From: Bacillus sp. (in: firmicutes) | Lineage (GTDB): Bacteria; Bacillota; Bacilli; Bacillales; JACDOC01 | Length of the DNA: 64,000 nucleotides | Assembly: GCA_017656295.1 (NCBI GenBank) | Contig: JACDOC010000001.1 | Coordinates: 310,001 to 374,000, forward strand | Direction: 5' to 3' | In this document: positions 8,887-53,767 of the stretch, piece after piece | How the letters are laid out: the number at the start of each line of letters is the position of its first letter | How positions within the stretch are numbered: the stretch's first letter is position 1 | The notes under the pieces: generated by a model | Database searches by the model: none | What the model was told of the DNA's origin: nothing | What the model saw: only the letters and a program-made list of their open reading frames with translations | Program-made: the position numbers and the translations under genes

Positions 8887-10639
8887 ATGCGTATTAATCA
8901 CAATATTGCAGCGTTAAACACGTATCGTCAGTTAACTGCTGGTACAGCTGCAGCAGGAAAATCAATGGAAAAACTATCTTCAGGTCTTCGCATTAACCGC
9001 GCTGGTGACGACGCAGCAGGTCTTGCCATCTCTGAAAAAATGCGTGGTCAAATTCGCGGACTTGAAATGGCTTCTAAAAACGCGCAAGACGGTATCTCTT
9101 TAATCCAAACAGCTGAAGGTGCGTTAAACGAAACTCACTCTATTTTACAACGTATGCGTGAGTTAGCAGTTCAAGCATCAAACGATACAAATACAGCAGC
9201 TGATCGTGAAGAGATTCAAAAAGAAATCGATCAGCTTGTAGATGAAATTGACCGAATTGCAAATACTACTGAGTTTAACACAAAGAAATTACTAAATGGT
9301 AGTATTGGATTAAGTGTAAGTGACACTTCTATTGCGTCTAAAGTTAGTATGACGGCTGATACTCAAAATGGAACTTACACAATCGATTTGACTGGTGCTA
9401 CTTTAGGGACTCGAGCAACAACGACTGCTATAGCTACAGATGCTAGTGGGTTAGCTCAAGGTACAGGTATATTAACAGTAAATGGTGTTGACTTTGCTGT
9501 TGATACTACTACTAAACTAGAAGATTTAGCAGCTGATATTACTGCCAAAGTTGATGGAGTAGAAGCAATCTATGACAATGTTGCTAACACATTTGAAATT
9601 CGTACAATTGAAGTAGGTGCGGATCAGACTTTAGATGTTTCTGCAAGTGCTGATAACTTAATAAACAGTGAAACTTGGAACGCATCAGCTGTTAGTGATA
9701 CTGGAACTAACATTTCAGGTGTTAACGTAGATGGTATGGGTGCTAACACTAATGTTGCATATGATGGTAATAAAGTTATTGTAACTGGTGGTAATGCAAA
9801 AGGTTTAGAGTTCACCGCAAATCAAGCGGGTGCAGGTGTAACTGTTGATATTACTGTTGGGGGATCATTAAACTTCCACATTGGTGCTAATGAAGATCAA
9901 ACAATGAATGTATCTGTAAATGCCATGGATGCTAGCAACCTTGGAGTGTCATCACTTGATGTAACTACGGCAGTAGGTGCAGAGAATGCTATTACTACAA
10001 TTGACGATGCTATTCAGACTGTTTCTGCTGAACGTTCTAAACTAGGTGCTTACCAAAACCGCTTAGAGCACACAATCAACAACTTAGGAACATCAGCTGA
10101 AAACTTAACAGCTGCTGAGTCCCGTATCCGTGACGTAGACATGGCAAAAGAAATGATGGAGTTCACAAAGAACAACATCCTCTCTCAAGCAGCACAAGCA
10201 ATGTTAGCTCAATCCAATCAAATGCCACAAGGAGTATTACAACTTCTTAGGTAATTAGGATTGGAAGGGCGTCTAGTCTGGAAACGGGCTAGAGGATCAC
10301 TGGGTGAATTGCTGGGAGTTCCTAAAGCTCCATCAACCACAACGTAGCCGGAAACGGCAGGCGTGAAGGTTTGAAAATGATGGAGATGAAACAATGGATA
10401 ATCAGCAGCCAAGCTCCTGTGAGGAAACTCTGGAGAAGGTTCAACGACTAGGATAAACCACCTAAAGCGATAAAGCTATGGTGATGAAATCCGTAGGGTG
10501 GCAAGTGCCATTCGAAGTGCCCAGCCCCTAACTAGCGGAAAGCTAGAGGGTGAAGATATAGTCTACACAACGGTCGAAAGACGTTGAGGCATGGCAAGCC
10601 AACCAACAACCACAAGGAGTACTTCAATTACTTCGATAA
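8887..10639 (+). CDS. hag: Flagellin Hag1, split by one group I intron
   Basis: Filament subunit. Exon 1 is 8887-10209 (441 codons) and exon 2 is 10595-10639 (14 codons plus stop); splicing gives 455 aa. The conserved N-terminal D0/D1 ([36 protein letters not shown]) and C-terminal D1/D0 ([39 protein letters not shown]) are complete, with a hypervariable centre of about 210 residues. Unspliced RNA is also translatable to a 455-aa protein ending at 10254, because the first 45 nt of the intron encode a near copy of the exon 2 peptide ([14 protein letters not shown] against [14 protein letters not shown]). Expression is predicted to be sigma-D dependent and CsrA repressed. Confidence 0.9.
10210..10594 (+). 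ncRNA. Group I self-splicing intron 1 (in hag1)
   Basis: 385 nt with no internal protein gene. Core signatures are TTCAACGACTA and GAAGATATAGTC. GACTA (10446-10450) and TAGTC (10559-10563) form P7. P2 is a 9-bp stem with a GAAA loop at about 10271-10292, and P6a is GAG-GAAA-CTC at 10421-10430. P9 is CAACG...CGTTG with GAAA at 10568-10586, followed by 8 nt ending in the terminal G (10594). The 5' exon ends in T (10209) and splicing restores the flagellin frame. GGATTG (10258-10263) pairs with the intron's first six bases CAATCC and, with one mismatch, with the first six of exon 2 (a P10-like pairing). The exon-IGS part of P1 is weak, so the 5' site is less certain than for intron 2. Confidence 0.88.
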
Positions 10640-10687: not shown

Positions 10688-12069
10688 GGCTCTATAATAA
10701 ATGTTGGGGTTTTCATACAATTTTGGTCAAAAAAAAAGACACGCAACCCCGTCATTCTTTTATACTTGAATTGTCCAGAAACAAGTAAAAAGAATGGAGT
10801 TGCGTGTACTATGAATTCTATCATGAATATCCCAGGATTAAAAGACTGTCAGGTGATAAAAATGGAGGAGCGTAAAGGGGAAATCCTCCTCTATGTGGAA
10901 ATGGAGCGAAAGCCACACCCTTGTCCTGACTGTGGTCAGCTCACCAACAAAGTTCATGATTATCGATGGCAAAAAGTTCAACATTTAAAATGGTTTGAAC
11001 GGATGACGTATATTTGGTATAAACGTCGTCGATATGCCTGTGCTTGTGGAAAACGCTTTTCCGAAAAGAATACGTTTGTCAAACGATATCAACGAACATC
11101 GATTGAATGGAATCAGGCCGTGTCCGTATGCGCTATTAAGGGAAAGACATTTAAGGAAGTAGGGGATGTTTACGGTACCTCATCCACGACCATTATGAGG
11201 CGATTTGATCAAATCGCTCAAACGGAAGTCAAGCAAGTAGAGTCACTACCTCGAGTGATTGCGATTGATGAATATAAAGGAGATACAAGGGAAGGAAAGT
11301 ATCAACTCATCATCGCCGATGGGATCACAAAGCAACCCCTAGACATCCTACCGAACCGAAATAAAAAGACGATAAAAGACTACCTTCAAAGGCATGGTCA
11401 CCACGTTCAAGTGGTGATTATGGATATGAGTCCTTCTTTTAAGGCAGCCGTTCGTTCGGCCCTAGGGAACCCAGTGATCGTGGCGGATCGTTTTCATTTT
11501 TGTCGTTATATTTATTGGGGGATTGATCGAGTTCGCAGGCGTATTCAGCAGCAGTTTCACGACTATGACCGTAAAAAGTGCAAAAGAAAAAGGTACATTT
11601 TTTATAAACCTCAAAACACTTTAACTGAAGACGATCAGTGGCATTTAGAACGCTATTTGAATATGTCGGAAGAGCTAAAAAAAGCCTATGAACTAAAAGA
11701 ACGTTATCAATCGTGGTTTAACCGAGCGAAAGAGATCGGTCAAGAAATGATTAAAGAGGTAAAAAAAGAGCTGGAAGCATTTTATCAAGTAGTAGAGGAA
11801 TCAGGAATTCCAGAGATGAAACAACGATAGAAACGTTTCGAAATTGGCAAGTAGAAATCCTGAATAGCTTTGTGTATGGTCATTCCAATGGCTTTTTGGA
11901 AGGAATCAATAATACGACAAAAGTCATCAAGCGAAACGGCTATGGATATAAAAACTTCAAGAGATTTCGAGCAAGAATCTTATTGAGACATCAGTATAAA
12001 GGAATGGGTCTACATATAGGATAAGGGGTGGCCTGATTTCTTTACCACCCCAACATTTGACGGAGAACC
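10688..12069 (+). mobile_element. ISL3-family insertion sequence (1382 bp)
   Basis: The ends are imperfect inverted repeats of about 23 bp: 10688-10710 begins GGCTCT and shares AAATGTTGGGGT with the complement of 12047-12069. The element is flanked by a perfect 8-bp direct repeat, TTTTTTAT. It contains one transposase gene, now frameshifted. End sequence, 8-bp duplication and transposase all fit ISL3. Confidence 0.92.
10811..12024 (+). pseudogene. ISL3-type transposase, frameshifted
   Basis: Reading from ATG 10811 gives an N-terminal zinc ribbon (CPDCGQ...CACGKRF), a helix-turn-helix and the start of the DDE domain (VIAIDEYKG, VVIMDMSPSFKAAV, IVADRFHF). It then stops at 11830 with KQR. The rest (ETTIETFRNW...YGHSNGFLEGINNTTK...FRARIL) continues in the -1 frame to 12024. 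It carries the invariant glutamate region, so the break near 11815-11830 removes the third catalytic residue. No canonical slippery heptamer is visible, so this looks like decay rather than programmed frameshifting. Confidence 0.88.
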
Positions 12070-12473: not shown

Positions 12474-12647
12474 ATGTTAGTTTTAGGTAGAAGACCTGGT
12501 GAATATGTCGTTATAAATGACAACATTATTGTCAAAGTAGTAAAAAGCAACAAAGGAGATTTAAGATTAGCAATCGATGCACCAAAAGAAGTCTCCATCG
12601 TTCGAGGAGAAGTATACGAAGCAAGTAAAAATTTTAATAATACATGA
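12474..12647 (+). CDS. Second, short CsrA paralogue
   Basis: A 57-aa protein starts at ATG 12474 behind GTGGAGGGA: MLVLGRRPGEYVVINDNIIV, then VKVVKSNKGDLRLAIDAPKE and VSIVRGEVYE. It keeps the CsrA landmarks MLVL, RxxGE, the L-R/K-I-A/G-I-xAP block, and Arg44/Glu46. It differs from the 77-aa CsrA at 8508 by having the canonical RRPGE and by lacking most of the C-terminal extension associated with FliW control. It is flanked by two related hairpins with AGGAG loops. An RNA-binding role in flagellin control is inferred from family and position; no partner is known. Confidence 0.85.
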   Translation: MLVLGRRPGEYVVINDNIIVKVVKSNKGDLRLAIDAPKEVSIVRGEVYEASKNFNNT

Positions 12648-12840: not shown

Positions 12841-15362
12841 ATGAGAATTAATCACAACATTACGGCGTTAAACACTTATCGTCAATTAACTTCAGGTTCT
12901 ATGGCAGCAACTAAATCTATGGAAAAATTATCTTCTGGACTTCGCATTAACCGTGCTGGCGACGACGCAGCAGGTCTTGCGATCTCAGAAAAAATGCGTG
13001 GACAAATTCGTGGGTTAGAGCAAGCTCAACGAAATGCACAAGATGGTATTTCCTTAATTCAAACTGCTGAAGGTGCATTAAATGAAACACATGCTATCCT
13101 TCAACGTATGCGTGAATTAGCTGTTCAAGCTTCAAACGATACAAATACTGATGAGGACCGACAAGCAATTCAGGATGAGGTTAAACAATTAAAAGATGAA
13201 ATCAATCGAATTGCAGATACTACAGAATTTAATACACAAAAATTGCTGGATGGTTCAAAAGGGGCTAAAACAACAAGTGCGGATCTTACAGGTGGAGTGG
13301 CTTTAACCGCGTCAGCAGCATCCCCTATTGTAATTAAAGATGGTAGTGAAACAAAGAATAATGTTATTTCTGTGCTTTATAATGATGGGTCAGATGACCA
13401 TATGTTAACAGTAGAATTTGATGAAGGAAGTTATGATGATTTAGTATCTTTTACAAAAGAATTTAATGACAAGTTGGCAGCTGCTGCGAGCGAATACGAC
13501 ACCGCATATGGTACTACGATTTCAACAAATTTAGGGAAGTTTACCCTAGGATTTGATGTAGATTCTGCAACAGGGACAGTTCAGTTTAAAATTAGTGACG
13601 ACGGAACTGTTTCTGGTCAAACATTAACTATTAAAAAAAATGGGGCAAGTACAGAATTAGTTAATGCCTTAGGAATTAGTGGAGGCGATTTATCTCACAC
13701 TGGTGGTGCAACAGCAGGTTCAACTGCAGCAGGGGCAAACTCACAGGATACTTCGGGAACAGATTTTCAATGGGATGCATTTTCAGTTGATTTAGAAGAT
13801 GGTCTAAATCCAGAAGTTAACCAAAACAATGAACTAAAAATGGAAATGGACGGACTCCAATTAACTGCTGAAATTGCAGAAGGAAATTATACAGCCCTAA
13901 ATGGCGTAGGTTCTTTATCAGAAGCTATTAAAAATTCCATAGAAACAGCAATTGATAATGCAGTAGATGCACTATCAGCTTCTGATTTGGAAGCGAAGGG
14001 TTACCGTGGTGCACTTGCGGATATGAAAACAGCTTATAAAAACGATTTAAAAGCAAATTTAAATGTAGAATTTAACACAGAAGGTAAATTAGAAATTAGT
14101 AACACTTATTTAATGGAAGTTGATGAAGGTTCGAAAGGTGCTATTACTGTTGGAATGACAAATGTAAATGCGGATATTAAAAATTCTGGTGTTACATTCC
14201 AAATCGGTTCTAATGCATCTCAAACTATGACAATTAGCATTAATGACATGAGTGCAAGTGCAATTGGTGAAACAACAACTAAAGCTGGAAATACACTAAA
14301 ACTAGAAGATATTGATGTGTCAACAAAAGAGGGAGCACAAGATGCTATTGAAGTTCTTGATACTGCGATTAAGCAAGTTTCACAAGAACGTTCAAAATTA
14401 GGTGCATACCAAAATCGTTTAGAGCACACAATCAACAACTTAGGAACATCAGCTGAAAACTTAACAGCAGCAGAATCACGTATCCGTGACGTTGATTATG
14501 CCTTAGCTGCCTAAGTAGTGACAGGCACAGTCGTCCTAGCTGGAAACGGCTAGTGATTATGACCGGGTGAATTGCTGGGAACCCCTTAGAGCCTTTGACG
14601 CCACAACGTAGCTGGAAACGGCAAACGTGAGGGCTGGAAAAGTCAAAGGATTGGGCAACCGAGCAGCCAAGCTCCTGTGACGAAAGTCTGGAGAAGGTTC
14701 AACGACTAGGGTATACCGCCTAAGGCAATTGCTATGGCGATGAAACCCGTAGGTGAAGCAATGATGAGAGACATTGTGGATCCGAAGTGCCCGGCCCCTA
14801 ACAGGTAAAGCTGAGGGTGAAGATATAGTCTAGTCATTTGCGAAAGCAAATGTTCGCACGATGGCGAAAGAAATGATGGAGTTCACAAAGAACAACATCC
14901 TCTCTCAAGCAGCACAATCTATGTTAGCTCAATCCAATCAAATGCCACAAGGAGTATTACAACTTCTTAGGTAATTAGGATTGGAAGGGCGTCTAGTCTG
15001 GAAACGGGCTAGAGGATCACTGGGTGAATTGCTGGGAGTTCCTAAAGCTCCATCAACCACAACGTAGCCGGAAACGGCAGGCGTGAAGGTTTGAAAATGA
15101 TGGAGATGAAACAATGGATAATCAGCAGCCAAGCTCCTGTCTCGAAAGAGTGGAGAAGGTTCAACGACTAGGACATACCACCTAAGGCGAAACGCTATGG
15201 TGATGAAGTCCGTAGGTGAGGCAAGATAGCTGAACCGAAGTGCCCAGCCCCTAACTAGCGGTAAGCTAGCGGGTGAAGATATAGTCTACACAACGATCGA
15301 AAGACGTTGAGGCATGGCAAGCCAACCAACAACCACAAGGAGTTCTTCAATTACTCCGTTAA
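12841..15362 (+). CDS. Flagellin Hag2, split by two group I introns
   Basis: Second filament protein. Exons are 12841-14496 (552 codons), 14861-14929 (23 codons) and 15318-15362 (14 codons plus stop), all phase 0, giving 589 aa. The N-terminus [16 protein letters not shown] and C-terminal [41 protein letters not shown] and [14 protein letters not shown] are standard flagellin D0/D1. The variable centre is about 130 residues longer than in Hag1. Unlike hag1, the unspliced RNA stops at 14514 after ...RDVDYALAA and lacks the C-terminal D0 helix needed for polymerisation, so intron 2 must splice. Central codon use is AT-rich, as in hag1. Confidence 0.9.
14497..14860 (+). ncRNA. Group I self-splicing intron 2 (first intron of hag2)
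   Basis: 364 nt, no ORF. The 5' exon ends GTTGAT and the 3' exon begins ATGGCGAAAG, restoring RDVD-MAKE. P1 is clear: exon GAT pairs with GTC (14530-14532) with a T.G wobble at the splice site, and TATGCC (14497-14502) pairs with GGCACA (14524-14529) with one mismatch. P2 is CTAGCTG-GAAA-CGGCTAG (14536-14553), P6a GAC-GAAA-GTC (14679-14688), P7 GACTA (14704-14708) with TAGTC (14826-14830). P9 is CATTTGC-GAAA-GCAAATG (14835-14852), then 8 nt to the terminal G. hag1 has no intron at the equivalent position. Confidence 0.93.
14930..15317 (+). ncRNA. Group I self-splicing intron 3 (second intron of hag2)
   Basis: 388 nt, no ORF, same insertion point as intron 1 (GCT|CAA). The first 211 nt (14930-15140) are identical to 10210-10420 of intron 1. 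Downstream the two differ, but pairing is kept: P6a is CTC-GAAA-GAG (15141-15150) instead of GAG-GAAA-CTC. P7 is GACTA (15166-15170) with TAGTC (15282-15286). P9 is at 15291-15309 and is followed by 8 nt ending in G at 15317. Its first 45 nt again encode the alternative C-terminus [14 protein letters not shown] and a stop. Confidence 0.88.
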
Positions 15363-15423: not shown

Positions 15424-16242
15424 TCATTCACAATTTACTTCTTTCCATTTATATACTATTGACCAATAACTTCTCTTTAGAGCTTTATTGATTTCATCGA
15501 TGGTAGCTCCTTGATGTTTCATTTCTTTAAGAAGTTGTATTTCTTTGTCTGAATATGGGTCTCATTCAGGGAACTTATTTTCCCATTTTACTTCCTCCGT
15601 TTTTAACCGTTCTTTCCAGTTTGTTTTGTAATACATAGATGGGCAGCTATGAATGACTGGAGCAATTGTTTCGAAGAAGAGAAACGTATCTTTCACTGAT
15701 GTTGTTTTTAAAATCATTCCTTGTCCATCAGGGCGTTTGCTTAATCTAAATGTAATACCAAAATGGGTAGAAATATGTTGTTGTAATATTTGTAATTCGT
15801 GGGGAGGAAAACATTGCAAGTAGAGATAGATAGGAGGAGTTAGATAGATTTTTTTCTTTCGCTTGTTAATTCGTGAAGAGATGCAGAGTGAGCCGTCATC
15901 CATATATAAAATTGAAAGAAAATGTGGCAGTGTACAATATAACAATAAAGAAAGCGGCAGATGTTTGGTGCCATCATCATGATAAAAGAGAGGATATAAC
16001 TTTGTAAACAATGGTAGAGAAGATGAACGAATACAATGACTTTTTTTGATAATATATAAAAGACCATCAAAAAATGAAACTTTCCATTTTCGATATTCCA
16101 TTTGCTCGACGCCAAAATGTTCTCGGTAACTATGATTTTTTCTCCTATTATTTTTATAAAGTTTTGTGATTTCTCCATCACCGATAATGCTTGCAATTAA
16201 AATGTTTTGTTGTACTAGCGTTAGTTGGGATAGTTCATTCAA
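15424..16242 (-). pseudogene. Free-standing LAGLIDADG homing endonuclease with in-frame TGA
   Basis: Translation from TTG 16242 (RBS GAGGTGA) gives 226 aa, ending at a TGA (15562-15564). Two LAGLIDADG-type helices are visible, LIASIIGDGE (about residues 15-24) and FLSILYMDDG (about 108-117), each with its catalytic aspartate. This is a single-chain, two-motif endonuclease. The same frame stays open past the TGA for 45 more codons to 15424. It reads DPYSDKEIQLLKEMKHQGAT then IDEINKALKR, resembling a Myb/SANT-type helix-turn-helix DNA-binding tail. The TGA probably replaces a TGG (Trp). The catalytic core may therefore still be made without its tail. It is convergent with intron-bearing hag2. 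Confidence 0.8.
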
Positions 16243-53649: not shown

Positions 53650-53767
53650 CTCTTATCAAGAGAGGCGGAGGGACTAGGCCCAATGAAGCCCGGCAACCTT
53701 CAAGTCAAAAAACGGCTTGAAAAGGTGCCAATTCCTACAGATCCTTGAGATCTGAAAGATAAGAGGA
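53650..53767 (+). promoter_or_regulatory. SAM-I (S-box) riboswitch
   Basis: The conserved S-box core is visible: CTCTTATCAAGAGAGGCGGA, GGGACTAGGCCCAATGAAGC, CCGGCAACC, AAGGTGCCAATTCC and closing GAAAGATAAGAGG pairing with the 5' strand. SAM binding favours the terminator that follows and shuts off metY-metX. Confidence 0.97.

Follow-up and report, generated by a model that had tools for sequence, protein, structure and literature searches.

Collaborative homing, in which a free-standing endonuclease cuts intronless alleles and so mobilises a neighbouring ORF-less intron, has been described in phages, namely for the cyanophage psbA intron, for T3/T7-like phages and for the ICP1 terminase (PMC3984707, PMC10448857). 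Group I introns are also known from the flagellin genes of thermophilic Bacillus and Geobacillus (Hayakawa and Ishizuka 2009, 2012, as cited in PMC3984707) and, according to the same citing paper, self-splicing has been reported for those of thermophilic Bacillus. From fungal mitochondria, mORF elements with a C-terminal duplication have been described in Allomyces atp6 and in Glomus atp6, atp9, cox2 and nad3 (PMC3630166).

The locus analysed here lies in a 64,000-nucleotide stretch of Bacillus sp. DNA (the window). As in phage collaborative homing, a homing endonuclease gene (HEG) lies outside an ORF-less intron and co-occurs with a specific insertion site, the class HEG_A with site 2 and a second class, HEG_B, with site 1. 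Unlike the phage systems, this case, read from sequence alone, concerns a bacterial chromosome, a flagellin gene and a LAGLIDADG enzyme of the I-SceI type, in which each of two sites of one gene has its own HEG class and the site-2 intron brings a replacement for the 3' end. Like those of Hayakawa and Ishizuka, the introns are of group I and interrupt flagellin genes of Bacillales; the endonuclease association, the two-site pairing and the duplicated C-terminus go beyond those introns as they are presented in the citing paper. Like the fungal mORF elements, the HEG is associated with a copy of the host gene C-terminus that is diverged in DNA and conserved in protein, but here this copy sits in the P1 stem of a group I intron and the HEG lies outside the intron on the opposite strand. 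No link between a free-standing LAGLIDADG gene and a flagellin intron was reported in the open-access literature searched, in which the original flagellin intron reports are represented by their citing paper. The features of the window are as follows.

8887 to 10209, forward strand: hag1 (flagellin) exon 1 (PF00669, PF00700; splice site from frame and conservation)
10210 to 10594, forward strand: hag1 group I intron at site 2 (GCT|CAA), without endonuclease ORF (RF00028, 66.7 bits)
10210 to 10254, forward strand: recoded flagellin C-terminus and stop with which the hag1 intron begins, within the P1 stem-loop
10595 to 10639, forward strand: hag1 exon 2, second C-terminus and stop
12841 to 14496, forward strand: hag2 (flagellin) exon 1 (PF00669)
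14497 to 14860, forward strand: hag2 group I intron at site 1 (GAT|ATG) (RF00028, 69.7 bits; site-1 alleles in relatives)
14861 to 14929, forward strand: hag2 exon 2 (frame, junctions)
14930 to 15317, forward strand: hag2 group I intron at site 2 (GCT|CAA), the HEG_A-associated site (RF00028, 71.1 bits)
14930 to 14974, forward strand: recoded flagellin C-terminus and stop with which the hag2 site-2 intron begins
15318 to 15362, forward strand: hag2 exon 3, second C-terminus and stop
15424 to 15561, reverse strand: detached helix-turn-helix tail of HEG_A and in-frame TGA (translation, alignment to L117-L121)
15562 to 16242, reverse strand: HEG_A, LAGLIDADG_2 endonuclease gene (Pfam PF03161, E 6e-17)

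Intron boundaries were assigned based on the reading frame, P1 helix pairing and conservation. The three RF00028 matches (10236-10586, 14487-14852 and 14956-15309) contain no endonuclease ORF, and the junctions are GAT|ATG and GCT|CAA, both as stated in the original prediction. A conserved core and a P1 with U.G at the 5' splice site identify the introns as group I. P1 pairs GAU|U with AGUC at site 1 and GCU|C with GGGC at site 2, the latter in all 57 of 57 distinct site-2 sequences. The Rfam placement of P1 and of the intron ends at site 2 was rejected, as its junction leaves the flagellin frame. The site-2 introns of hag1 and hag2 share an identical sequence in about the first half and differ thereafter, a pattern consistent with gene conversion between the copies.

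Between hag1 and hag2 lies an ISL3-type transposase gene with a broken frame (10811-12025, forward strand), and a stretch related to it (37%) sits between two flagellin genes in G003 (L115). Upstream of hag2 there is a second, divergent CsrA-like gene (12477-12647, forward strand; 38% to the first); CsrA-like stretches also precede the second flagellin gene in G146 and G098. G098 has a third group I intron match (L203, 2203-2451) that splits the N-terminal part of a flagellin gene, and similar N-terminal domain splits were seen in G031, L131 and G132. A SAM riboswitch (RF00162, 100.8 bits) is located elsewhere in the window, at 53650-53765 on the forward strand.

The window genome has one copy of HEG_A and three group I introns. 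The HEG_A ORF encodes 226 aa from a TTG start, with two LAGLIDADG motifs containing Asp22 and Asp116; no NCBIfam match to it was found. It had been predicted as a single gene from 15424 to 16242, 62 bp from hag2. The LAGLIDADG gene is indeed on the minus strand, but the ORF stops at 15562 and that range crosses an in-frame TGA (15559-15561), so the 62-bp distance applies only if the detached tail is counted as gene. Beyond the TGA, the translation continues as a 44-codon, HTH-like tail, and nucleotide alignment to the intact relatives L117-L121 reveals a 30-bp in-frame linker deletion just before it. In the closest intact relatives, from Parageobacillus thermantarcticus (L117, 81%) and Anoxybacillus vitaminiphilus (L118, 82%), the frame runs uninterrupted into a C-terminal helix-turn-helix, which is intact in most HEG_A homologues and present in nearly all of the intact ones. 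The window copy thus departs from the full-length gene found in most homologues, with a catalytic core in which both catalytic aspartates are intact. It is probably decaying and, with its HTH tail detached, it may be inactive.

A structure model built from the intact homologue L117 (81% identical to the window copy) and 38 others reached a pLDDT of 93. Its best PDB matches are I-WcaI and I-SceI, and a profile search retrieved the same relatives; bI3 maturase and the bifunctional I-AniI are also among the fold matches. The Asp22 and Asp116 columns are invariant in the 39 homologues. According to this model, HEG_A is an I-SceI-like LAGLIDADG protein, with two motifs, an Asp in each and a matching fold. 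It shares the single-chain, two-motif fold and the catalytic aspartates with I-SceI and I-WcaI (PDB 1r7m, 6x1j), but differs from both in its low identity (about 20%), in being free-standing and in the C-terminal helix-turn-helix added in intact homologues.

Scanning 84,980 species genomes yielded 57 HEG_A loci, to which further loci were added. At the 55 loci with a visible flagellin gene, HEG_A is downstream of and convergent to it, typically between hag and fliD, and in 53 of these the nearest flagellin gene has a site-2 intron. At the other two (L138 and L146), the flagellin gene nearest to HEG_A is intron-less and closes with the recoded C-terminus, and the next flagellin gene has a site-2 intron; the HEG_A of L138 has an internal stop. 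Matches elsewhere comprise a broken fragment (L169), a locus with a flagellin relic only (L162) and, at an rRNA locus, a protein of 27% identity (L173). Homologues at unrelated loci, which would have spoken against the original prediction, did not emerge as the rule: readable homologues are convergent to flagellin except L169 and L173. The co-occurrence of endonuclease and intron supports the prediction. The neighbourhood of HEG_A and flagellin is not due to chance. No phage or plasmid homologue was found, and a viral search returned a single match of 26% and no close one.

The HEG_A tree clusters mostly by genus. A transfer involving Sporosarcina HYO08 was not counted, although monophyly of the Caryophanaceae HEG_A was rejected (p-AU 2e-5), because FliS also places this genome outside the Caryophanaceae. 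The record of L142, titled Pseudomonas sp. ISL-84, has a Bacillus-type flagellar locus close to L137 and is probably mislabelled or contaminated.

Since a search of the GTDB family gave only the window genome, 150 relatives were sampled at the order level. HEG_A is present in eight of them, each time with a flagellin group I intron close by on the opposite strand. With a strict pattern, the site-2 intron was detected in 18/150 genomes, including 8/8 HEG_A genomes (p 8e-9, uncorrected for ancestry), while 10/18 carry the intron without HEG_A. An intact empty site 2 occurs in 86/150 genomes overall and in 0/18 site-2 intron genomes; none was found in the eight HEG_A genomes of this sample. Every copy is occupied in G000, G003 and G112, which have several flagellin genes. 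With a looser search, G098 and G132 turned out to have an intron copy in one flagellin gene and an intact site 2 in another, and a further flagellin gene without detected intron is present in G044, G084 and G121; all five genomes are without HEG_A. The intron is patchy within genera, e.g. in groups g4, g11, g27 and g62, and HEG_A is a pseudogene in G003, G071, L135 and L138, where site-2 introns persist.

A Pfam search revealed HEG_B, a second LAGLIDADG_2 class, in the same convergent slot as HEG_A. Matches were found in 33 of 397 genomes, some being weak matches to other classes. At the 27 readable HEG_B loci, one of which (G283) is tandem instead of convergent, the nearest flagellin gene has a site-1 intron in 24 cases and a site-2 intron in six. 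Counts tallied by hand give a site-2 occupancy of 53/55 beside HEG_A versus 6/27 beside HEG_B (Fisher p 3e-12) and a site-1 occupancy of 24/52 versus 24/27 (p 2e-4), p-values that are indicative and overstate independence because the loci share ancestry. The three HEG_B loci with an empty site 1 fit the homing model: two of them (G101 and G188) have a broken HEG_B, and the third (G334) has an intact one but several substitutions in the empty site. The enzyme was originally tied to one of the two flagellin junctions; for HEG_A the surveys point to GCT|CAA, while GAT|ATG is paired with its own class. A role of HEG_A at GAT|ATG was rejected, as site-1 introns occur without HEG_A in G007, G035, G064, G080, G098, G113, G132 and G146, several of which have HEG_B. 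Site-1 introns also occur without site-2 introns, and have a short in-frame YALAA-stop at their 5' end and no C-terminal copy, the hag2 intron included. The C-terminus of HEG_B contains a conserved RTTIYLPxxIKLTKPT (L201, L202, L200, L100), unlike the HTH of HEG_A, and the two classes seem to differ in their C-terminal DNA-binding parts. One intact HEG_B (L247, G383) is located between hpf and fliT, and no flagellin gene is found closer than about 4 kb.

The exon flanks were compared between occupied and empty alleles. The downstream exon of site 1 is spelled ATGGCGAAAGAAATG in 62/65 intron alleles versus 25/53 empty alleles with the same peptide (p 2e-9). At site 2, one synonymous spelling of the flank is shared by 28/42 occupied and 10/48 empty alleles (p 1e-5), an effect that is strong outside Exiguobacterium and Planococcus and fades within both. 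Such sharing would follow from a flank that serves as endonuclease target or undergoes co-conversion; RNA constraint on the few exon bases in P1 accounts only for the GAT or GCT codon. As to joint acquisition of intron and HEG, the shared spelling is seen, yet the HEG tree is genus-clustered.

The site-2 intron opens with an in-frame, recoded flagellin C-terminus followed by a stop; a second such end is encoded by the last exon. The original prediction did not include this duplication, which is present in 61/62 distinct site-2 intron alleles, the exception (L110/G031) being decayed. The intron copy is under purifying selection (pN/pS of 0.13 over codons 6-14), and its variable residues 8 and 14 track those of the 3' exon (permutation p < 5e-5). 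ANQQPQ is spelled by 54/61 3' exons and never by the intron copy. The intron strand immediately upstream of GGGC is the pairing partner of the first codons of the intron copy. When the P1 alignment was folded with RNAalifold, only the four invariant P1 pairs were recovered, because the P1 extension shifts register; this approach was replaced by a comparison of own and swapped P1 duplexes: over 19 distinct copies, the mean is -7.2 kcal/mol for own and -3.7 kcal/mol for swapped duplexes (p < 5e-5). Coding selection and the own-pairing advantage together thus constrain one stretch both as protein and as ribozyme P1. With the stop in the intron copy, spliced and unspliced mRNA both encode a complete flagellin. 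The unspliced form would then yield a working protein as well, and the coding constraint on the intron copy suggests that both forms are used; the recoding may also protect from cleavage. In L146, the intron-less allele follows the intron copy at first and the 3' exon copy towards its end, the product expected from recombination between the two C-terminal copies.

Taken together, HEG_A is likely to be a homing endonuclease gene in a two-part mobile element at flagellin 3' ends, for which collaborative homing, as originally proposed and now supported by the site-specific association across the surveyed loci, is the best explanation. HEG_A would cut intron-less flagellin at or near GCT|CAAGCNAACCAACAACC, and repair from an intron-bearing copy would install the site-2 intron, often the downstream exon, and the HEG just beyond. 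As the intron interrupts the target, a carrier would be immune, and therefore HEG_A would survive only beside the intron while the intron can outlive HEG_A. The intron would also bring a recoded C-terminus and stop in P1, leaving flagellin complete whether spliced or unspliced, and HEG_B would do likewise for the GAT|ATG intron. Such a mechanism would account for the pairing of each class with its site, for the one-sided loss and for the exceptions. Because the site-2 flank spelling fades in Exiguobacterium and Planococcus and the HEG tree mostly clusters by genus, the element may have been maintained by long vertical descent together with local homing, between copies and between strains.

The genus-level clustering, together with the conserved synteny, would also suit vertical inheritance of intron and HEG from an ancestral flagellin locus, with random loss and no present mobility. 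We regard this as unlikely, since loss runs one way (the intron often occurs without the HEG, and no HEG_A was found beside an unmodified empty site 2), the intron is patchy within genera, all flagellin copies are occupied in the multi-flagellin genomes G000, G003 and G112, and the flanks share one synonymous spelling. That both classes share the convergent slot between hag and fliD could also mean that the HEG homes into this intergenic region by itself (intronless homing), the introns being independent passengers of the same gene. Such a reading fails to predict the class-specific intron site (53/55 versus 6/27 at site 2), or that HEG_A was not found next to an unmodified empty site 2 and the intron without HEG_A is common (10/18), and appears quite improbable.

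A function as maturase for splicing of the site-2 intron, with no mobility role today, would agree with the intron-specific association, and LAGLIDADG proteins can be maturases, as the fold matches to bI3 maturase and I-AniI recall. However, HEG_A is absent from 10/18 intron genomes and has become a pseudogene in four cases in which site-2 introns persist, and none of the 39 aligned homologues deviates at the catalytic aspartates, making this role very doubtful.

Our assessment leans slightly towards a natural home-and-rescue element: an intron with a recoded, cleavage-resistant C-terminus in P1 that keeps the host gene working with or without splicing, recombination between the two copies giving a functional, immune intron-less gene, and two competing endonuclease classes that exchange one slot and each spread their own intron. 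For the rescue copies of engineered gene drives, the duplicated 3' end would provide a natural precedent, and selection would act on the P1 helix at once as coding sequence and as ribozyme. With an independent endonuclease-intron pair at each of two sites of one gene, the hypothesis would be testable with two enzymes and two targets. If true, this would be a chromosomal case of collaborative homing across Bacillales, while the literature searched describes phages. The annotated flagellin C-termini in these genomes may correspond to the unspliced version.
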